From Alphaproteobacteria bacterium (GTDB taxonomy: Bacteria; Pseudomonadota; Alphaproteobacteria; Bin95), in assembly GCA_022827685.1 (NCBI GenBank), contig JAJEIH010000054.1, positions 1-64,000 on the forward strand: DNA of 64,000 nucleotides. Direction: 5' to 3'. Shown in pieces: positions 37,373-46,966 of the stretch (positions are counted from its first letter, which is position 1; the number at the start of each line of letters is the position of its first letter). Under the pieces are notes generated by a model that saw only the letters and a list, made by a program, of their open reading frames with translations, did not search any database and was not told the origin of the DNA. The position numbers were made by a program, and so were the translations under genes.

Positions 37373-37841
37373 CGACATGAACAGCACTGTCACCATCTAT
37401 GTCGCGACGATGACCGGCACGGCCGATCTCGTCGCCGAGGAAGTCCAGGCTGCGCTGGAGGACGAGGGTGTGCAGGTGGAGCTTCAGCCGATGGACGATC
37501 TCGACGCGGGCGCCTTCGCCGCGCCCGGCCTCTACCTAGTGGTCAGCTCCACCTACGGCCAGGGCGACGTGCCGGACAACGGCCAGGCGCTTGCCGACGC
37601 ACTGGAGCGCGAGCGCCCCGACCTCGCCCATGTCCGCTACGGCCTCTTTGCGCTCGGCGACATGACCTATGCGCGCACCTTCTGCGGCGGCGGCATGACC
37701 TTCGACCGCATCCTGAGCGAACTCGGCGCAAGGCGCGTGGGCGAGCCGATGCGCCACAATGCGTCCTCCGGCCTCCTGCCCGAGGACGAGGCGGCGGACT
37801 GGGCGCGGTCGTGGTATGAAAGCGCCGTGGCGGAGGCGTGA
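37368..37841 (+). CDS. Short-chain flavodoxin (MioC/CPR-domain type)
   Basis: A 157-residue flavodoxin. The FMN phosphate loop is ATMTGTADLVAEEV (about 13-26), the second loop SSTYGQGDVPDN (about 60-71), and the third GLFALGDMTYARTFCGGG (about 92-109), with the DRILSELGARRVGEPM end that matches MioC and cytochrome P450 reductase FMN domains. It would carry single electrons between an NADPH reductase and an oxygenase. It heads the plus-strand arm and overlaps the benzoate-CoA ligase (GTGA). Placed opposite boxR, it is the likely electron carrier for BoxB. An in-frame ATG three codons later is possible. Confidence 0.85.
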   Translation: MHDMNSTVTIYVATMTGTADLVAEEVQAALEDEGVQVELQPMDDLDAGAFAAPGLYLVVSSTYGQGDVPDNGQALADALERERPDLAHVRYGLFALGDMTYARTFCGGGMTFDRILSELGARRVGEPMRHNASSGLLPEDEAADWARSWYESAVAEA

Positions 37842-39331
37842 GCGACATGGCCGGTTACAACGCGGCGGCGGACCTGATCGGGCGCAACCTCGCGGCCGGG
37901 CGCGGCGCGAAGACGGCCGTGATCGACAGCCGTGGCGCCCACAGCTATGCCGACATCGACGCGGCGACCAGCCGGTTCGCCCATGCGCTCTGCAGGCTCG
38001 GCATCCGGCGCGAGGAGCGCATCCTGCTCTGCCTCAACGACACGGCGGACTTCCACACCTGCTTCCTCGGCGCCATCAAGGCGGGCGTCGTGCCGGTGCC
38101 GGTCAACACGCGGCTCACCCGCGACGACTACGCCTTCATGCTGCGCGATGCCCGCGCGCAGGCGGCGTTCGTCTCGGCGAACCTCGCCCCGGTCTTCGAG
38201 GGCCTGCATGACCGCGTGATTCCGGACGGGGACGGGCTGGCGCGGTTGACCGCGCCCGAGAGCCCCGTGTTCGCAGCCGCGGAAACCGTCGAGGACGAGA
38301 TGTGCTTCTGGCTCTACACCTCGGGCACGACGGGTCAGCCGAAAGGCGCGGTGCATCTTCACGGCGACATGGCGCGCACGGCCGAGCTCTATGCCGGGCC
38401 GACCCTGGGCGTGGGCGAGGATGACGTGCTGTTCTCCGCCGCCAAGCTGTTCTTCGCCTACGGGCTCGGCAACGGCCTGACGTTCCCGATGGCGGCGGGC
38501 GCGACCGCCGTGCTGCTCGAAGGGCCGCCGGAGCCGGGACCGATCTGCCGCCTGCTGCGCGAGGCCCGGCCCACGATCTTCTTCGGCGTACCGACCCTGT
38601 TCGCCATGCTGCTGGCGAGCGGCGAGGCGCCGGGACCCGGCGAACACGCGCTCCGGCTTGCTGTCTCCGCCGGCGAGGCGCTGCCGCCGGAAATCCTGCG
38701 CCGCTGGCAGGAGGCCGTCGGCGTGGACATTCTGGACGGCCTCGGCTCGACCGAGATGCTGCATATCTTCATCACCAACCGCGTCGGCGACATCGCGCCG
38801 GGAGCGTCGGGGCGCCCGGTGGAGGGCTACGAGGTCCGCCTTGTCGATGACGACGACCGGGTGATCGAGGAGGCGGGGGCGCTCGGCGCGCTGGAGGTGA
38901 AGGGGCCGACCAGCGCGGTGTTCTACTGGAACCGGCGCGAGCGCTCGGTCGAGACCTTCCGCGGCGCCTGGACGCGCACCGGCGACAAATACACGCGGGA
39001 TGAAAACGGCGTTTACGCCTTCGCCGGGCGCGCGGACGACATGCTCAAGGTCGGCGGCATCTATGTCTCGCCCTTCGAGGTGGAGGGCGCGCTGCTAAAG
39101 CATGAGGCGGTGCTGGAGGCGGCGGTGGTCGGCGCCGAGGACCCGGACGGCCTTGTCAAGCCCAAGGCCTTCGTGGTGCTGCAGGAGGGCAGGGAGGCCG
39201 GCGCGGCGGAACTGCAGGACTTCGTGCGCGGCCAGCTTGCGGCCTACAAATATCCGCGCTGGGTCGAATTCGTGGACGAACTGCCGAAGACGGCGACGGG
39301 CAAGATCCAGCGATACAAGCTCAGGGCATGA
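37838..39331 (+). CDS. bclA: Benzoate-CoA ligase
   Basis: A 497-residue adenylate-forming ligase producing benzoyl-CoA. The phosphate loop is LYTSGTTGQPKG (159-170), and the benzoate-CoA ligase group shows KLFFAYGLGNGLTFPM and DGLGSTEMLHIFITN, both present. TRTGDKY and KVGGIYVSPFEVE mark the hinge, and the catalytic lysine is in KTATGKIQRYKLR. The start is GTG overlapping the flavodoxin stop; an ATG three codons in is possible. Substituted benzoates may also be substrates. It overlaps the next hydrolase gene (ATGA). Confidence 0.93.
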   Translation: MSDMAGYNAAADLIGRNLAAGRGAKTAVIDSRGAHSYADIDAATSRFAHALCRLGIRREERILLCLNDTADFHTCFLGAIKAGVVPVPVNTRLTRDDYAFMLRDARAQAAFVSANLAPVFEGLHDRVIPDGDGLARLTAPESPVFAAAETVEDEMCFWLYTSGTTGQPKGAVHLHGDMARTAELYAGPTLGVGEDDVLFSAAKLFFAYGLGNGLTFPMAAGATAVLLEGPPEPGPICRLLREARPTIFFGVPTLFAMLLASGEAPGPGEHALRLAVSAGEALPPEILRRWQEAVGVDILDGLGSTEMLHIFITNRVGDIAPGASGRPVEGYEVRLVDDDDRVIEEAGALGALEVKGPTSAVFYWNRRERSVETFRGAWTRTGDKYTRDENGVYAFAGRADDMLKVGGIYVSPFEVEGALLKHEAVLEAAVVGAEDPDGLVKPKAFVVLQEGREAGAAELQDFVRGQLAAYKYPRWVEFVDELPKTATGKIQRYKLRA

Positions 39332-40128
39332 GCGGTCCGCCGGTCCTGGACGGCCGGCTCGCCCTCGACGACGGCGAGATCGAATACCGCCGGATCGAGG
39401 GCGGCCCCGACCGCCCGACACTGGTCTTCCTGCATGAGGGGCTCGGCTGCGCGGCCCTCTGGCGCGATTTCCCCGACCGCGTGGCGGCGGCAACGGGCGC
39501 GGGCGCGCTGGTCTATTCCCGGCTCGGCTATGGCGGGTCGTCGCTGCCGGCCGGCGGCGCATTCCCGCTCGACTACATGCATGTCGAGGCCGAACGGCGC
39601 CTGCCGGCGATCCTTGCCGCCCTCGATATCGAACGGCCCGTGCTCGTCGGCCACAGCGACGGCGGCTCGATCGCGCTCATCCATGCCGGCGCCTTCCCGG
39701 ACGCCGTGGCCGGGCTGGTCGTCATGGCCCCGCATGTGTTCGTCGAGGACTGCTCGATCCGCGCCATCGAAGAGGCCCGGCGCGCCTTCGACACGGGCGG
39801 CCTCGACAGGCGGCTCGCCCGCTGGCACCGGGACGCCGCCGGGACCTTCGACGCCTGGAACCTGGCCTGGCTCGACCCGCGCTTCCGCGACTGGAACATC
39901 GAACGCTACCTGCCGAAAGTGAGCGCGCCGCTGCTGGCGTTCCAGGGCGAGGCAGACCCCTACGGCACGCGCGCCCAAACCGACCGCATTGCCGCTCAGG
40001 TGTCCGGACCGGCGGACATCGTGCTGCTGCCCGGCTGCGGCCATGCCCCCTGGCGCGAGGCTGCGGACTCCGTCATGCCGGCCATGACGGATTTCGCCGC
40101 GCGCCTTGCCGGCGGCTACAGGTTGTAA
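39328..40128 (+). CDS. Alpha/beta hydrolase of the box cluster
   Basis: A 266-residue alpha/beta hydrolase. LVFLHEGLGCAALWRDFP gives the oxyanion-side HEGLG loop, GHSDGG holds the nucleophile serine, and the histidine is in PGCGHAPWRE. Similar hydrolases are commonly found beside benzoate-CoA ligases in box clusters; a role as thioesterase clearing stalled CoA esters, or esterase releasing benzoate, would fit. Translationally coupled to the ligase. It ends with a 13-bp overlap into the convergent beta-barrel gene. Confidence 0.82.
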   Translation: MSGPPVLDGRLALDDGEIEYRRIEGGPDRPTLVFLHEGLGCAALWRDFPDRVAAATGAGALVYSRLGYGGSSLPAGGAFPLDYMHVEAERRLPAILAALDIERPVLVGHSDGGSIALIHAGAFPDAVAGLVVMAPHVFVEDCSIRAIEEARRAFDTGGLDRRLARWHRDAAGTFDAWNLAWLDPRFRDWNIERYLPKVSAPLLAFQGEADPYGTRAQTDRIAAQVSGPADIVLLPGCGHAPWREAADSVMPAMTDFAARLAGGYRL

Positions 40129-41399
40129 ACGAGGTTCAGGCCGATATAGGTGTCGCGGCGCACCCCGTAGAGGGCGTCGTCCGGCCAGTCGACGCCGTGG
40201 AACGCCGTGCCCTCGAGCTCGAACGACCAGTTGTCGCTCAGCCGCGTCTTCGCCTCGATGCCGAATACCCGCCCCGCATGGTCGAGGTCCTCCGCCACGC
40301 TCAGGGTGAACTCCGTGCCCTCGACATCGTTGAGCGCCAGGCGGACGGCGAGGAACAGGTCGTTCTCGAAGGCGTTGGTCGCGCGCTCCGCTCCCCGTCC
40401 GTCCCAGTGCCATTCCGCCAGCAGGGTGATTTCCGCCTCCGTGTCGAAGACGGAATACAATGTGTGTTCGCCGCCGAGTATCCACGCGCCGAAATCGTCT
40501 TCCTCACCCTGGAACCCGTTCTCGGGCGCGGGCCGGTTGCTGGCGCCGAGGCGGCGGATGGCCTCCAGCTTGAACAGCCACGGTCCCGTGGTGAGCTGCG
40601 CGTCCAGCCCGAACTGGCGGATTTTTTCGTAGTGCGGTTGCAGCACGAAGTTGCCGGCATTGCCCAATACAACAGGCCGCAGCACCGGTTCCCGGCTCTG
40701 GCCGTCGAAATAGCTCAGGCCGAGATCGACGAGGCCGAAGCTGCCGCTGTAACGGACCGCCCAGTCCATGTGCCGTTCCTCGGCGGCGCTGTCGTATGTC
40801 GCCCTGTCGTTGTCCACGACGAATTCGCTGCGCAGCCTGCCGGCCCGGCCCGGATAGGTGCGCTCGCGGTGCCAGGGCAGGAGGAACAGCTCCAGCACGC
40901 CCCAGTCCGCGGACCATGTGCCGTGCGCCATCGGCTGGCCGAGCTTGGTCTTCTCGTCGGGATGCTCGACCAGGTCCGTCTGGTTGACGATATCGACGAT
41001 GTTGCGCACCTCGGCCACGCCCCAGGCGACCCGGTCCACGCCGAGGCGCAGCTCCCACTCGCCGTCGCCGGCCTCGCCGTAGAGCAGCAGGAAGGCTTCG
41101 CGGAGGTCGGCATGGGTGCGGCGCGGGTCGGCGCTGTCGTAGCGGAAGAAGGGCGAGACGGTGATGCTGCGCCCCTCCTCGTCCTCGGCATAGAGTTCCG
41201 GCTTGGCCGTGAAGCCGCTCGCATGGGAGCGCTGTCCGGGATGCTGGGCGCTGTCCGGATACAGGCGGCTTTCGATGCTGAACCTGCCGGACAGCTCGAC
41301 TTCGATATCGGCGGCCTGCGCCGCCGCGCTGAACGCGGCGAGGAGCGAAAGCGCCAGCCCAGCGGCAACGCTCGGCAAGACCCCGCGGCGCCGGCTCAT
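40116..41399 (-). CDS. Predicted outer-membrane beta-barrel protein
   Basis: A 427-residue protein with a signal peptide ([29 protein letters not shown], cleavage about residue 30) and then alternating aromatic beta strands, such as [25 protein letters not shown] and [12 protein letters not shown], with acidic turns, to a final strand ending IGLNLVYNL. The last residue is Leu, not the common Phe. I see similarity in layout to DUF1302/AlgE-like barrels but cannot name it. The ATG overlaps the squalene synthase stop (ATGA), so it is coupled to isoprenoid synthesis. Confidence 0.75.
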
Positions 41400-42466
41400 G
41401 CGGCCAGGCCGCCCGCCTCCCGGACGCGGGGAAGACCGCGTCCGAGGCCGGTGAACAGGAGCTTCAGGGCGGCGTCGGAGCGCGCCAGCGCGCTGGTGGT
41501 CACGACCACGGCCTTTACGGCGCGCCGCGAAATCTTGACCTCCTGGCCGCTCCCGAATGCAGGCGTGGTGTATGTGCGGCGCAGGGTGAGCACCGCCATG
41601 CCGAGCGCCCAGAGGCAGAAGCGGCGAATGCCCGTTTCGTGCGCCGGTATGAGCAGGATGTAGCGGAGCGCATTGGAAAGGTGCTGGCCGGCAATCGCGA
41701 TGAGCCTGTTGAGCCCTTCGACGAACCCCGGATCGGCCTGGCCCGGCGCGAGCGAGCGGAGGTCGAAGCCGGCCGCCAGGAAGACGCTGCGCGGCAGCCA
41801 GCACGCCCCGCGGCTCCGGTCCTCCCATATGTCCTTCAGGATGTTGGTCATCTGGAGGCCCTGTCCGTAGGAGGCCGACAGGGCGAAGAGCTCCTCGCGC
41901 CGCGCGTCGATTTCCTCCGAATAGTCGCAGAAGAGCTCCGTCAGCATTTCTCCGACGACGCCGGCGACATGGTAGCAGTAGCGGTCGAGCTGCTGGAGGT
42001 CGTTCAGCCCTTCGAGGCTGGCGCCTTCCTGAAATTCCACCATGCCGTGCGTCATGATCCTCACGCAGCGCAGCATTGCGCGGCGCTGCGGGGCGGAGAA
42101 GCTGTCCGTGATCCGCATGACGCGGCCGACATTGTCGATGAGTTCGCGTTCCGCCTCGGTCGTGGAGCGGGTCAGCAGGGCGCCGAGGTCCTGCGCAAAG
42201 GCCCCGGCAGGCTCGCCGCCTTCGACAACGCCGACCCAGCGTTCGGAGAATTCGCGCTTCTGGCCCGCAGAGAGGGCGGCTTCGTCCTCGATGGTGTCCG
42301 CGATCCGGCAGAGCAGATAGGCATTGCCGACCGCGTCCCGGAGCGGAGGGGGCAGTTGGGGAATGGTCAGCGCGAAGGTGCGGGAAACGCCCTGCAGGAT
42401 CTCCGCCTGGTAAGCAAGGTCGCGTTCGAGGGCGGTTTCGCCAGTTGCCGTTTTCAGCTTCGACAT
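41396..42466 (-). CDS. Squalene/phytoene synthase family protein, squalene synthase type
   Basis: A 356-residue head-to-head prenyl synthase. The first Asp-rich motif is RIADTIEDE (Asp57-Asp61), and the second [14 protein letters not shown] (Asp212, Asp216), with [12 protein letters not shown] near the N-terminus and [17 protein letters not shown] between. This pattern fits farnesyl-diphosphate farnesyltransferase (squalene synthase) better than phytoene synthase or HpnC/HpnD. The C-terminus shows hydrophobic stretches. No squalene cyclase is in the window. Start chosen at [10 protein letters not shown] after an AAGCGGG; the frame remains open upstream through noncoding sequence. Confidence 0.82.
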
Positions 42467-42604
42467 CCCGCTTTCAGCCGGATTCCGCCACAAAGGCCTG
42501 CCGGTTCCATGGTTTCCGACCGGACAGTCCAAGTCAAGCAGCGGTTCGCACGCCGCCGGACAGGGGCGGGCGGCTTCGCCGCGCCGGGAAGACCCCTCAC
42601 GGTG

Positions 42605-42725
42605 TGTCATGAGATGTCATGTTTTTGCCGTGAGGGCCGGCAGGACCCCGCAGGATGTGTCATGGAATGTCATGATCTGCATGCGCAGGGCGCATATCCT
42701 GTGGTCCGTTCGGGCATGGGCTCCG
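42605..42725 (+). repeat. Dispersed TGTCATG element, copy C
   Basis: TGTCATGAGATGTCATG (from 42605) and TGTCATGGAATGTCATG (from about 42658) flank a G+C-rich spacer. Then come TGCATGCGCAGGGCGCATAT and GTTCGGGCATGGGCTCCG-type tail, nearly identical to copy B. It lies in the region upstream of the squalene synthase gene. Confidence 0.88.
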
Positions 42726-42789
42726 GGTATTCCATCCGGTTTCTCCGGCTCCTCGTCTTTGGCATGGGCCTGTCCTTTCGGTCCGTCGT

Positions 42790-43073
42790 CGTTCCGTTCT
42801 TCCCGCCGCCCGGCTCGTCGGCGGCGGGACCCTGATTCTCGCGTATCCTGCGCGCGCCTGTGCCGGCGCGGGCGCGCGTTTCGCGCCGGCGCGGTTCGCA
42901 CGCCTGATTGCGCGCGCGAGACGCAGGGCGCACTTCTCCCGTGTGTTTCTCAGGGGTTTTTTCGCGCCGGCGCGCAACAGGAGAGGGGGCGGCTCCGCGG
43001 ACGCCTTTCCTGTCCTGCTGCCCCATATAGGTTGCCGGCGTTGCGGCGTCAATTCACATTAGAGAATTATTTC
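42790..43073 (-). repeat. 290-bp dispersed element with promoter, copy 2
   Basis: Matches 11743-12032 across its length with indels. The conserved core includes GATTGCGCGCGCGAGACGCA and TTTCTCAGGGGTTTTTTCGC. On the minus strand it begins with a promoter-like AT-rich segment. Reading frames differ between the copies at the 5' end, so a shared protein is not supported. Confidence 0.82.
43024..43052 (-). promoter_or_regulatory. Leftward promoter in the 290-bp element, copy 2
   Basis: On the minus strand TTGACG (43047-43052) and TATATG (43024-43029) are 17 bases apart, or CTATAT (43025-43030) at 16. TTGAC with CTATAT is the typical strong housekeeping promoter of alphaproteobacteria. It would drive the 290-bp element and perhaps the squalene synthase operon. 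Confidence 0.55.
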
Positions 43074-43134
43074 TGAAGTAAAGAACAAATGTTTTCGGGA
43101 AATCGGGCCCGCGCATATCGAGAAGGCCGGTGGT

Positions 43135-45429
43135 CTATCGCTCCCTGCGGTCGATCGCCATCAGCAGGGGCGGGAGAAGCAGGAAGTCGGCGAGCAGCGC
43201 GAAGCCGAGCGTGATCGCCACCATCAGGCCGAGCGACCAGCTGATTTCGAAACCGGAGAAGGCGAATACCAGAAAACCCAGCGACAGGACCGCAGTCGTG
43301 GTCCACAGGGCCCGCCCGACGGAGCGGAAGGTGCGGCGCACGGCTCCGGCCGGGTCGAGGCCTTCACGGCGAGCCCGCAGGTAGTTCGTCAGGAAATGGA
43401 TTGTATCGTCCACGACGATGCCGAAGGCGATTGCGGTCATCACCGAGCCGGCAAGACCGACCCGCCCGACGAGGTAGCCCCACAGGCCGAAGGTCATGGC
43501 CGCCGGGATGAAATTGGGCAGCAGGCTGACAAGCCCGAGGCGGATACTCCGGAAGACCCCGATCAGGATCAGGGAGATCAGCGCCATTGCGATGACCGTG
43601 CCGGTGAGCATGCTTGCAATGTTGCGCTGCGAGAGATGCGCGAAGACGATGCTGAACCCCGATGCCTCGGTCAGGAGAGCCGGCGCATTGGCCCGAAGCC
43701 AGTCCTGGGCCCGCGCGTCGAGTTCGCGCTGCTGCCGCGACGTCAGGCTTCGGGTCACGACGCTCATCCGCGTTGCGGACTTGCCGACGTCGATCCGGTC
43801 GTTGAGGTCGCTGCCGAACGGGAGCGAAAGCTCGTAGAGGAGGAGATACTGGGCCGCCAGTTCCTTCTCTTCCGGCAGGCGGTAGAAGGCCGGGTCGTCG
43901 CCGTGCATGTTCCTGTTGAGGCGCTTCATGATGTCCGTGAACGCCTGGACGTGCACCACTTCCGGCTGTGCCCGGCCCCATTCCGCAAAGGCGTCCACCG
44001 CCTGCAGGTATTCGGGATCGGTGATGCCTCCTTCGCGCCCGGCGTCGAGGGAGAATTCCAGCGTTTCCATGCCCGTCAGATTGTCGATGACGAAGTCCGT
44101 GTCGCGCCGGAACTCGTAACGCTCGTCGAAATATCTCGTCCAGTTGTCCGTAAGGTCGATGCGCGGGATGCCGGAGACCAGGGCGACGGTGAGCACGGCC
44201 ATGGAAAGGAGCAGGACCCTGCGGCGCTCCACGACAAACTCGCCGAAACGCTCGAAGAAACCCGCGCTCCCGCCGAAGGCGCGCGGTGCGCGCACCGGCA
44301 GAACGGAGAGCAGGGCCGGCAGCAGGGTGACCGAGTAGAGGAATGCGCACAGCACACCGAAGGCGACCAGGTTGCCGAGCACGCGGAACGGCGGCGAATC
44401 GGATGCGTTGAGGCTGAGAAACCCGATCGCGGTGGTCGCGGTGGTGAGAAAGACGGGCCAGATATTCTCGCGGAGCGCCCCGGCAATGGCTTCGTTTCTG
44501 CCGAGCCCCCGCCCCATTCCTTCCAGGACGCTCGCCACGATGTGGATCGTATGCGCCACGGCGACGGTCGTGACGATGATCGGGATGCCCGAATTGGCCG
44601 GGTTGAGCACCGTCCCGATCCAGCCCGCGAAGCCCATCGTGGTGTTTACGGTAAAGCTCAGCGCTATGACGAGCGCGAGAGTGCCGAAGACGGAACGCAG
44701 GAGAACGCCGGATGCGACGGCAATGATCGCGAACACGAGAGGGATGAGGGTGCGCGCTTCCTCCTCGGTCGTCTCCGCGAAAGCCCGGTGCATGACGACA
44801 TCGCCGGTCAGATGGTATTCGAGGTCCGGATGGGCGGCGCGGGCCTCTTCCAGAAGCGCGCGAAGATAGCCGTTGATCTCGGCGATCGAGGCGTCGGCGT
44901 CGTCCGTGAGTGCGAAATGGACCGCCAGCCCCGCCACCCGCCCGTCATGGGATACGAGGCGGCCCGCGAGGTCGATTGCGTTCAGTGCGATTTCCTCGAC
45001 CCGCGCAAGGTCCTCGTCGGCAAGCGCGTCCGCCCCTTTTACGAGCGGCCCGACGATCAGATCGTCCTCGAACGATTCGCTGTGGGTGTAATTGGTCAGG
45101 GAGTCGACCCGGGTGGACAGCGGCGCCTGCCAGGCCGCTTCGGTCAGTTCCTCGACGGCGGCGAGGGTCTCGCGGGTGAACACCGAGCCCTGACGCGGAG
45201 CGATTGCGACCAGCGCGACATTGGATGCGGAATAGGTCTCCTCCAGCGCATCGAGTGCGGCCAGCTGCGGGTTGTTCTCGTCGAACAGGCTGCGGTAATC
45301 GTTGGTCACGCCGATGAAGGGCGCGCCTGCCGTCGCCGCCAGCATGACGAGCCCCGCAAGCGCAACGACCGCCCATCGGTATCGAAGAACGAATTCGATA
45401 TAGCGGTCGAGAGGCGATGACGCCGTCAC
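43135..45429 (-). CDS. RND/MMPL superfamily transporter
   Basis: A 764-residue transporter with two six-segment halves: first TM about 17-37 (WAVVALAGLVMLAATAG), a large periplasmic loop (about 38-215), TM2-6 (about 220-390), TM7 at about 415-435, second loop to about 610, and the last TM bundle to the end. MMPL-type features are RSVFGTLALVIALSFTVNTT and IAFGIVVDDTIHFLTNYLRARREG. It resembles the COG1033 exporters that move lipids, including hopanoid- and sterol-linked ones. GTG start with GGGGGGGAG about seven bases upstream. It lies beyond repeats but in the same direction as the squalene synthase and barrel genes. Confidence 0.85.
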   Translation of the reverse strand: MTASSPLDRYIEFVLRYRWAVVALAGLVMLAATAGAPFIGVTNDYRSLFDENNPQLAALDALEETYSASNVALVAIAPRQGSVFTRETLAAVEELTEAAWQAPLSTRVDSLTNYTHSESFEDDLIVGPLVKGADALADEDLARVEEIALNAIDLAGRLVSHDGRVAGLAVHFALTDDADASIAEINGYLRALLEEARAAHPDLEYHLTGDVVMHRAFAETTEEEARTLIPLVFAIIAVASGVLLRSVFGTLALVIALSFTVNTTMGFAGWIGTVLNPANSGIPIIVTTVAVAHTIHIVASVLEGMGRGLGRNEAIAGALRENIWPVFLTTATTAIGFLSLNASDSPPFRVLGNLVAFGVLCAFLYSVTLLPALLSVLPVRAPRAFGGSAGFFERFGEFVVERRRVLLLSMAVLTVALVSGIPRIDLTDNWTRYFDERYEFRRDTDFVIDNLTGMETLEFSLDAGREGGITDPEYLQAVDAFAEWGRAQPEVVHVQAFTDIMKRLNRNMHGDDPAFYRLPEEKELAAQYLLLYELSLPFGSDLNDRIDVGKSATRMSVVTRSLTSRQQRELDARAQDWLRANAPALLTEASGFSIVFAHLSQRNIASMLTGTVIAMALISLILIGVFRSIRLGLVSLLPNFIPAAMTFGLWGYLVGRVGLAGSVMTAIAFGIVVDDTIHFLTNYLRARREGLDPAGAVRRTFRSVGRALWTTTAVLSLGFLVFAFSGFEISWSLGLMVAITLGFALLADFLLLPPLLMAIDRRER

Positions 45430-45811
45430 CCGGTCTCCCCCCCGTAACGGTTCGCCGCCGCTCCGTTTCGCCTTTCCGCCGTCGCCGGCGGAACGGCCCG
45501 AAAGGAACCGGCGCCGCCCACCCTACCGGATTCACACATCTGTCTGCGGCGGTTTCGCCTCTTATGGCGCCCACCCGTCACCCCGGCCCCCGAGCCGGGG
45601 TCCAGCCATGGCTTGCGACGAGGCCGCAGCCGGCGGAGAGCAGACTCGACCGCTGAACCTGCGGCGAGAACCGAGGCTGGACCCCGGCTCGGGGGCCGGG
45701 GTGACGACAAGGGGTGCGGAGACAAGGAAAGGGGCGCGGAGCGGAATGTGGCCGGGCCGGCGGACGCACTGGACACGATCCGGGACGGGATGTGCGCATG
45801 CGGCAGGCCGC
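45430..45811. other. Intergenic region with hairpin element
   Basis: A 382-bp stretch between the MpaB-like gene's 3' end and the RND gene's start. It contains hairpin element copy 2 (45577-45705) and a TGTGCGCATGCGGCAG tail (45791-45806) also seen at 11626-11640. The 45430-45570 part should carry the RND promoter; I see no convincing -35/-10 pair. Confidence 0.65.
45577..45705. repeat. Long inverted-repeat (hairpin) element, copy 2
   Basis: The 29-base arms at 45577-45605 and 45677-45705 are perfect inverted repeats of each other, and each arm folds on itself (CCCCGGC...GCCGGGG). The left arm is identical to that of copy 1 at 11437-11465. The 71 bases between the arms are unrelated to those in copy 1. 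Looks like a non-autonomous mobile or REP-pair element. Confidence 0.88.
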
Positions 45812-46966
45812 CTACCATGGCTGCGACTTCTCGTGTTTGACGTGGTCGGGCAAATCGTAGGTCAGGCCGCTGTCCTCATATACGGAAATCTGGAGAAGCC
45901 GGCTGAAATTGTCGGCCCGGACCACCAGCCCGCTCTTCAGCATGCGCTGGATACGCTGTTTCAGGCGGAAACCGAACAAGGTTCCGAAGACCCGGGTCGG
46001 GGGATACTGGAAATGCCCGGCCAGTTCGTTCCCTATGAGCGCGCGGGACAGTTTGTAGGCAAGGGCGATGACCTGTCTTCGCTCTTCATCGTCCCCGATG
46101 TCCACGATGCCGGGAATGGCGCCGATCAGTGCATTCGCCATCGCCGCCGAATCCGGATCGGGCGGCGGCTCGCATATATTCGCAACCCGGTAAATCCTGT
46201 CCGCCTCCGCGCCGTTCTCGTAAAGGATCGATTCGGGAATGCCCATCAGGTAGCCGGAATAGCGCCAGACATCGAGAATGCTTTCTTTCTCTTCTTCCGT
46301 GAAACGCGCGCCCACCAGTTGCGCATAATCGAGGAGCCGCTTGGAAAAAACCGAAATGGCGAAACCGAGATGGGCCGCGTGCAGCGGCGTGCCCCAGGCG
46401 CCGTCGTTCCATTCCTCGTGCCTTGCCAGCAGGCTCCTGATCCGGGCATGCACGAAGCGCACGCGGGTCGAGAGCTTCCATCCGTCCCCGTCCCGCTGCA
46501 GGCCGCCGGGGAAAAAGATTTCGAGCAGTTGGCGGTTGTTCTGCTGGAGGCGCCTTTTGGTGGCCGCGACACGGCCGGTAATGCTGAAGGATTTGGCTAT
46601 GAGCGTCGAAAACCCTTCCACGAGAACGCCGGCGACGAATGCAACCAGCATGAGGTCCGCATTGGCGTGGAAGGCGCGCACTCCCGACTGAAAAGCGCTG
46701 TAATCCAGCCAGTCCGGCTCCCGGAAATCCTCGAAGAAACGGCGCAGCGGCTCCGGCGCGGCCCGCAATTCCGCTTCCCGCTGCTCTATTCCCGCTCCGA
46801 CGAACCTGTGAAGTCTTGCGGGATGCAGCGAATAAATCTCCTCCATTACCGGATCGAGCTCCGGATCGCCGATCATGGTGTGCCGGATATACCTGTCGGC
46901 CAGCGCGCTGTCGTAGCGCCGGGCTTTCCCGTAGCCTTCGATATAGGCTGACGGCGCGTCAAGCAT
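45812..46966 (-). CDS. MpaB/latex-clearing-protein-like oxygenase family (DUF2236)
   Basis: A 384-residue mostly helical protein. It shows the DUF2236 pattern: ALADRYIRHTMIGDPELD, FHANADLMLVAFVAGVLVEGFSTLIAKSF, STRVRFVHARIRSLL (the conserved Arg-rich helix of the family), the WNDGAWGTPLHAAHLG segment and VWRYSGYLMGIPESIL. The family includes heme b enzymes such as latex-clearing protein, which cleaves polyisoprene, and MpaB, which cleaves an isoprenoid side chain. Heme ligands are not certain from sequence alone. Its nearness to a squalene synthase is suggestive only. Confidence 0.75.
   Translation of the reverse strand: MLDAPSAYIEGYGKARRYDSALADRYIRHTMIGDPELDPVMEEIYSLHPARLHRFVGAGIEQREAELRAAPEPLRRFFEDFREPDWLDYSAFQSGVRAFHANADLMLVAFVAGVLVEGFSTLIAKSFSITGRVAATKRRLQQNNRQLLEIFFPGGLQRDGDGWKLSTRVRFVHARIRSLLARHEEWNDGAWGTPLHAAHLGFAISVFSKRLLDYAQLVGARFTEEEKESILDVWRYSGYLMGIPESILYENGAEADRIYRVANICEPPPDPDSAAMANALIGAIPGIVDIGDDEERRQVIALAYKLSRALIGNELAGHFQYPPTRVFGTLFGFRLKQRIQRMLKSGLVVRADNFSRLLQISVYEDSGLTYDLPDHVKHEKSQPW

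Follow-up and report, generated by a model that had tools for sequence, protein, structure and literature searches.

Described Lipid Transport Systems and the Locus Under Study

HpnN is a hopanoid transporter of the HAE3 type of RND proteins. AmeABCD of Castellaniella defragrans combines an HAE3 RND protein with a periplasmic protein of the LolA superfamily (DUF1329) and a DUF1302 outer membrane protein, and is described as an isoprenoid efflux system in the accessible part of its report (PMC6394551). BstABC of Methylococcus capsulatus, the RND pump of which is encoded beside sterol genes, was proposed as a sterol carrier to the outer membrane (accessible part of PMC10942540). Here, we analyzed a window of 64,000 nucleotides, meaning the whole stretch from position 1 to 64,000 of contig JAJEIH010000054.1 (Alphaproteobacteria bacterium, assembly GCA_022827685.1), in which a squalene synthase (SQS) gene and a gene for a predicted outer membrane beta-barrel overlap downstream of an MMPL/RND pump gene and an oxygenase gene. 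We see an even chance that this SQS-barrel unit joins the first committed triterpenoid step to the outer membrane end of an RND-LolA-barrel lipid route, with squalene serving for sterols and an Ame-like system moving a squalene-derived lipid. SQS and barrel are grouped more than by chance, namely in six of eight genomes of the genus, where two convergent genes are also conserved, and in three metagenome-assembled genomes (MAGs) of another lineage. Coordinates without a locus or genome prefix are window positions; G, L and C numbers denote genomes, loci and contigs, respectively. The four genes of interest lie on the minus strand and are transcribed in the order oxygenase, pump, SQS, barrel. 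Sizes are given in amino acids (aa).

45812..46966, minus strand: MpaB/Lcp-type (rubber-oxygenase-like) oxygenase, 384 aa, paired with the RND gene (PF09995, 6.9e-21)
43135..45429, minus strand: MMPL/RND inner membrane transporter, 764 aa, nearest to the HAE3 subfamily (PF03176, 2.6e-31)
42509..42539, minus strand: promoter-like block GCTTGAC-N14-CGGAAACCAT, 31 bases, 42 bases ahead of the SQS start
41396..42466, minus strand: one-gene-type squalene synthase, 356 aa (PF00494, SQS_PSY, 8.1e-55)
41396..41399, minus strand: ATGA stop/start overlap of SQS and barrel genes, four bases, read in the sequence
40116..41399, minus strand: predicted outer membrane beta-barrel, distant DUF1302 member, 427 aa (DUF1302, 4.7e-7)
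39328..40128, plus strand: alpha/beta hydrolase, convergent on the barrel gene, kept in genus loci, probably not part of the system (PF12697, 1.2e-15)
37838..39331, plus strand: benzoate-CoA-ligase-family enzyme, a neighbour kept in genus loci, probably not part of the system (TIGR02262, 6e-205)

The likeness to AmeABCD lies in the DUF1302 outer membrane barrel and in an RND pump that is possibly of HAE3 type. The locus differs in the LolA protein, which here belongs to PF17131 and is absent from the window locus (it is encoded on C87, and within the cassette in G005, L153 and L207), and in the attached SQS and oxygenase, with a cargo that is likely C30-derived. In the accessible description of BstABC, BstB is PhnD-like and BstC TRAP-T-like, whereas LolA_like and barrel proteins were found here. 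HpnN belongs to the HAE3 subfamily, to which the pump comes nearest, but the pump scored far below the cutoffs of the HpnN models (95.7 bits versus 751.85 and 29.7 versus 1100).

The sterol genes of sponge symbionts offer a further comparison. Clusters of CYP51, ERG24 and cyclase genes, usually with SMT or FDFT1 at the flank, were reported for 115 of 537 Ircinia MAGs (accessible part of PMC9531527), and in the msb cluster msbE encodes a bifunctional epoxidase/cyclase, with SQS on another scaffold (accessible part of PMC7074536). ERG24, CYP51 and cyclase, and the flanking FDFT1 or SMT of the Ircinia clusters, make up the likeness to the genome studied here, whereas a linkage of SQS to transport is not mentioned in those parts of the two reports (PMC7074536, PMC9531527). 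Fused SMO/OSC enzymes are mentioned, and functional bacterial SMTs shown, in the accessible part of PMC10070321; that of PMC4919349 mentions neither fused enzymes nor squalene synthase. In the literature searched, which held few subscription journals and no preprints, we recognized no paper linking SQS to RND, LolA and barrel. Earlier papers have thus described the sterol clusters of sponge symbionts, but none found there described the transport linkage.

Conservation of the SQS-Barrel Pair

The original prediction, made from the sequence alone, had stated that the barrel gene overlaps the synthase gene by four bases and that an MMPL/RND transporter lies upstream in the same direction. Both observations were confirmed as correct. 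ATGA stands at 41396-41399, where the ATG of the barrel gene (position 41399, in an open reading frame that opens at 41828) overlaps the SQS stop, and the pump gene lies on the minus strand 668 bases 5' of SQS; 382 bases separate the oxygenase and pump genes. Items beyond that prediction were the MPAB_Lcp_cat oxygenase, the LolA_like protein that partners the barrel family elsewhere, and the sterol cluster of the genome.

Genes in the fetched loci were called by a codon-usage script, which misses low-GC or divergent genes, and tblastn and profile searches were employed alongside. SQS and barrel were found as neighbours in six of the eight genus genomes (G000, G001, G004, G005, G006, G007). A contig end truncates the barrel of G002, and G003 carries an MMPL and only a diverged barrel, a long SQS not being found there. 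The gene order 5' of SQS varied among the members of the genus, while SQS and barrel remained together. The four-base overlap recurs as ATGA in G007; as a conserved coupling it was rejected, since the called barrel start lies past the SQS stop in G004, G006 and G001 and a LolA_like gene intervenes in G005 (order SQS-LolA_like-barrel). With LolA_like in this position in G005 and as the middle component of the module elsewhere, the tight overlap therefore looks derived.

For other lineages, named genomes were scanned for SQS and the best 80 of 179 relatives were kept as loci. Near SQS in these 80 loci we found a barrel homologue in 8, LolA_like in 4, MPAB in 5 (L139, L153, L207 and the Acidobacteriota MAGs L146 and L209) and MMPL in 19, some of the MMPL matches being weak. 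Of the eight loci with a barrel, five belong to the genus and three to MAGs that carry the label Rhodobacter or Rhodobacteraceae. In L207, LolA, barrel, SQS, MPAB and MMPL follow each other on a single strand, and L153 has the same set with MPAB reversed. At L208, SQS is accompanied by barrel and LolA; a short remnant of the C-terminus of the cyclase fusion, spread over two frames, is left between SQS and barrel (L208:2284-2486). The genome of L153 holds an epoxidase-cyclase fusion that is 73% identical (E <= 1e-20). Going by their isolate codes, these MAGs probably come from sponge metagenomes. In many gammaproteobacterial loci SQS was accompanied by a cyclase, and frequently by a large MMPL too, an arrangement resembling hopanoid clusters.

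For the SQS tree, the window and 34 of the best 80 loci supplied 41 rows; L041 (G249, 35% SQS) was left out of the alignment, and L143, with a run of N, out of alignment and tree. The genus was sister to L144 and L145, both Bacteroidota (support 100/97), and the Rhodobacter trio formed its own clade. In the MAG of L144 the SQS (71%) stands next to SdmB-SdmA-ERG24-CYP51 and the beginning of SQE-OSC, and the genomes of L144 and L145 hold the same fusion, one copy of which is split over two contig ends. A barrel homologue was not found in the genomes of L144 and L145, nor in those of L146 and L209. In the barrel tree (19 rows) the SQS-linked barrels fell into two clades (100/100 each) with no resolved fork joining them, therefore one or two origins of the SQS-barrel linkage are possible. 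Two close SQS-like genes, falling into two groups of the SQS tree, were observed in the Acidobacteriota MAGs of L146, L159, L183, L185, L189 and L209.

Squalene Synthase and Its Promoter-Like Block

The family placing of the SQS rests on Pfam, structures and motifs. It matched the eukaryotic squalene synthases in the PDB at 3e-18, and both Asp-rich motifs, DTIED and DIWED, were invariant among five genus SQS sequences. The NCBIfam equivalog squal_synth matched at 2.4e-33, but with 115.8 bits below its cutoff of 286.75. Putative formation of squalene is supported by family and motifs. The likely start is the ATG at 42466, giving 356 aa, and not 42610; database queries started one codon after this ATG. 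SQS was scarce in the class: at E <= 1e-30, 385 genomes yielded four with a match, namely the window genome, two others of its genus and one at 35%. An apparent frameshift in the SQS of G007 was rejected as such, its cause being a run of N. Two SQS_PSY genes on C46 were not adopted as a clear HpnC/HpnD pair (HpnC-like and short HpnD-like, both below cutoff).

The block GCTTGAC-N14-CGGAAACCAT was found upstream of SQS at equal spacing and once per locus in all six genus loci examined. A generic sigma-70 promoter scan yielded nothing above shuffles and left the block at 42509-42539 uncalled. As the block is conserved upstream of SQS, the SQS-barrel pair is probably under its own promoter, and the pump is therefore probably a separate unit. 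Further upstream of SQS, inspection by eye showed a pair of similar stretches within 42585-42673, each about 38 bases long and containing CATGACAT..CATGACAC, a possible regulatory repeat.

Predicted Sterol Pathway in the Same Genome and Genus

An oxidosqualene cyclase, sought in the genome after the original prediction, is present; it is fused to a squalene epoxidase and lies within a sterol cluster on C59, together with SMT, CYP51, an ERG24-type reductase, SdmA and SdmB. The fusion protein of 1140 aa carries squalene epoxidase (1e-21) and cyclase domains with a DCTAE motif. SMT matched Sterol_MT_C at 5.1e-22, CYP51 the structure 6mcw at 3.3e-104 and the reductase ERG4_ERG24 at 4.4e-67. Of the NCBIfam models, squalene_cyclas scored above its cutoff, and SdmA, SdmB and osq_cycl below theirs. 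Judged by these genes, the bacterium appears able to make animal-like sterols.

Across the genus, three genomes (G000, G002, G005) have the complete fusion and two (G004, G007) have copies truncated by contig ends; in G001, G003 and G006 it was not found. Whole or cut, it thus occurs in four of the six SQS-barrel genomes (G000, G004, G005, G007). CYP51 was present in G000, G002, G005 and G007, and SMT in G000, G001 (split over two contig ends), G002, G003 and G005, with an identity of only 46-50% for G003, G005 and one of two in G002. Stops in the partial cyclases were rejected as signs of dead genes, the one in G004 lying at the natural C-terminus and the one in G007 eight codons from the contig end. 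At G002:C74:5091-6792, an SMT-like gene (46%) precedes a fragment that shares 95% identity with the epoxidase-cyclase of the window genome, the full copy of G002 being 87% identical; contamination or recent transfer is possible.

The Barrel and Pump as Parts of a Wider Module

The barrel matched DUF1302 just above the cutoff (29.6 versus 23.2 bits); of other barrels, those of L153 and L207 were at or near the cutoff, the C87 paralogue was below it, and L029 and L032 had no match. A nine-sequence AlphaFold model of moderate confidence (mean pLDDT 68.7, pTM 0.66) predicts an N-terminal helix and about 18 strands. First-ranked folds by Foldseek and VIA-align were MOMP, AlgE, OprD-type and general porins, the best VIA-align rows reaching Z 19-20 over about 290-330 residues; a barrel fold shared in this predicted form says nothing on cargo. 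FadL was not among the best 50 matches listed per fold search, which is uninformative either way, and the barrel profile gave no match to PDB sequences.

Homologues of the barrel were found in 15 of 60 relatives, comprising all eight genus genomes and seven of 52 others. Elsewhere the middle component partnering this family is a LolA_like protein of PF17131, which in the window genome was found only on C87, by a second barrel (query G005 protein, E <= 1e-10). By its sequence relatives, the barrel is a member of a wider RND, LolA_like and barrel module and not specific for SQS. A fused MMPL-LolA adjoins a barrel homologue in G009. By description this resembles TOL_3187 of Thalassolituus oleivorans, an MMPL protein with LolA-like domain beside the predicted porin TOL_3188, which was expressed on n-C28 alkane and differs in its setting of growth on alkanes (accessible part of PMC6304351).

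In G005 a GPP34-P450 fusion and SMT lie next to a LolA-MMPL pair, a KshA-type Rieske gene being one position further out, and in G406 LolA-barrel-MMPL is flanked by a GPP34-P450 fusion and a KshA-type Rieske gene; sister modules too therefore accompany sterol-type enzymes. GPP34 (GOLPH3-like) domains fused to cytochrome P450 were seen at L137:4568-6595 and L230:5371-7407, near LolA/MMPL and KshA-type Rieske genes. A second RND, LolA_like and barrel set came with a tryptophan-halogenase-like gene and a 77-aa protein (L130:13076-15843 and L027:11197-14667, the own contig C87; L231:4984-11242). The L231 copy of this small protein matches nitrile hydratase alpha, as in leader-type peptides, and the set may serve to export a halogenated peptide. 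As one sister module thus has a halogenase and a small protein of nitrile-hydratase likeness for neighbours, the cargo probably varies within the family.

The window pump matched TIGR00921 (HAE3) at 5.3e-44, with 150 bits versus a model cutoff of 352, scored above the cutoff for MMPL, and has orthologues at 92-93% in G003, G004 and G005. Its Sterol-sensing Pfam match was rejected as a sign of sterol cargo, occurring in five of seven MMPL proteins checked, including the halogenase-linked one. The oxygenase matched MPAB_Lcp_cat with 75.8 bits (cutoff 23), and a six-sequence MPAB profile matched rubber oxygenase (5o1m/5o1l, 2.5e-16) with the RxxHAxxR stretch aligned. The conserved histidine of MPAB, aligned with the rubber oxygenase, is a putative haem ligand. 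MPAB stands ahead of MMPL in G000, G004 and G005, and a more diverged MPAB likewise in G007 and at one G003 locus.

Proposed Route and Alternative Explanations

In the preferred reading, SQS would make squalene, as family and motifs suggest, and the fused epoxidase-cyclase with the rest of the C59 cluster would, judging by gene content, convert it to a demethylated sterol methylated at C24. By likeness to AmeABCD, the RND pump would take a squalene-derived lipid from the inner membrane, the LolA_like carrier (the only one found in the genome is on C87) would shuttle it across the periplasm and the barrel would let it through at the outer membrane, with possible oxidation of this isoprenoid by the MpaB/Lcp-type enzyme. 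What is moved, in which direction, and what the oxygenase does are inferred here, movement outward being preferred. The synthesis-and-export set of the original prediction gained from the cyclase in the genome and from the grouping of SQS with the module in another lineage, whereas barrel and pump turned out not to be SQS-specific. The locus hints at a little-known route for sterol-type lipids across the bacterial envelope. BstABC is the candidate from the literature for bacterial sterol delivery to the outer membrane; a second, different set with a predicted barrel would make a full envelope route. In probable sponge symbionts with SMT this would, if true, bear on whether bacteria supply their hosts with alkylated sterols, biomarker sterols among them.

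Several observations weigh against such a joint route. The expected co-occurrence of SQS, barrel and MMPL was seen in L153, L207, G000 and G004, but MMPL adjoins SQS in only two of five readable genus genomes (G000 and G004, not G001, G005 and G006); this count leaves out G007 and G002 for contig ends, G007 having only 818 bases assembled upstream of SQS, and G003, with MMPL but no long SQS. The promoter-like block sits between MMPL and SQS, and a LolA_like gene was not found at the window locus (G005 protein query, E <= 1e-10). G001 (estimated 100% complete) and G006 (75%) keep SQS-barrel while cyclase and CYP51 were not found there, and in G004 the cyclase piece is cut by a contig end and CYP51 was not found. 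With no cyclase found in G001 at this completeness, the link of SQS-barrel to a full sterol pathway is therefore incomplete. Two of the three other-lineage genomes (L207, L208) were without the fusion at E <= 1e-20, and the barrel tree leaves a common origin of the SQS-linked barrels unsettled. Related modules occur without any sterol gene, one adjoining a halogenase and a small peptide-like gene, and the Sterol-sensing match, shared by the MMPL of the halogenase-linked module, is not specific. Finally, the tie of barrel and pump to the synthase did not hold in relatives outside the genus, where the seven barrel loci had MMPL within the fetched flank in five cases and SQS in none.

These last loci fit a neighbourhood accident, in which a general hydrophobe module would have lost the LolA_like gene in between and the locus was then inherited in the genus. 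The variable adjacency of MMPL, the LolA_like gene separating SQS and barrel in G005, and the hydrolase and CoA ligase, which have no obvious link and are conserved next to the barrel just as well as SQS, point the same way. We nevertheless hold an accident to be unlikely, as three other-lineage MAGs put SQS by LolA and barrel, two of them also by MPAB and MMPL, in other orders, and as the order upstream of SQS differs within the genus while SQS and barrel persist together. Lower still we rate the idea of a locus for uptake of sterols or hydrocarbons from host or environment, with SQS as a co-regulated lipid gene, which seems rather improbable. A biosynthetic enzyme beside an uptake system would be odd, AmeABCD is described as efflux (accessible part of PMC6394551) and the genome has its own sterol cluster, although in G001, where no cyclase was found, an SMT persists in two pieces at contig ends, LolA/MMPL in G005 have a KshA-type Rieske gene nearby, and PP_0765/0766 (growth with Tween 20, accessible part of PMC10866462) and TOL_3187/TOL_3188 (n-C28, accessible part of PMC6304351) are tied to hydrophobic growth substrates.

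Very unlikely in our view is a joint action of SQS and the MpaB/Lcp-type oxygenase that would yield an oxidative cleavage product of squalene for export by RND-LolA-barrel. The match of the MPAB profile to rubber oxygenase and the five MPAB genes near SQS among the best 80 of 179 loci would suit it, but MPAB is near SQS in just two of five readable genus genomes, MPAB-MMPL pairs also occur away from SQS and the substrate assignment is putative. The preferred reading, by which a squalene-derived lipid is moved by an Ame-like system, may be carried further to a dedicated synthesis-to-surface line in probable sponge symbionts. There the SQS locus would supply squalene, MPAB and/or the sterol cluster would modify it, and RND-LolA-barrel, which unlike BstABC has its own barrel, would deliver a sterol or cleaved squalenoid to the surface or host; this extension we consider doubtful.

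Further Features Between Oxygenase and Pump Genes

An open reading frame of 130 aa at 45426-45818 was rejected as a gene, being without Pfam match and uncalled by the gene caller. At 45580-45700, between the oxygenase and pump genes, a GC-rich inverted repeat was noticed by eye, which resembles a dispersed palindromic element.

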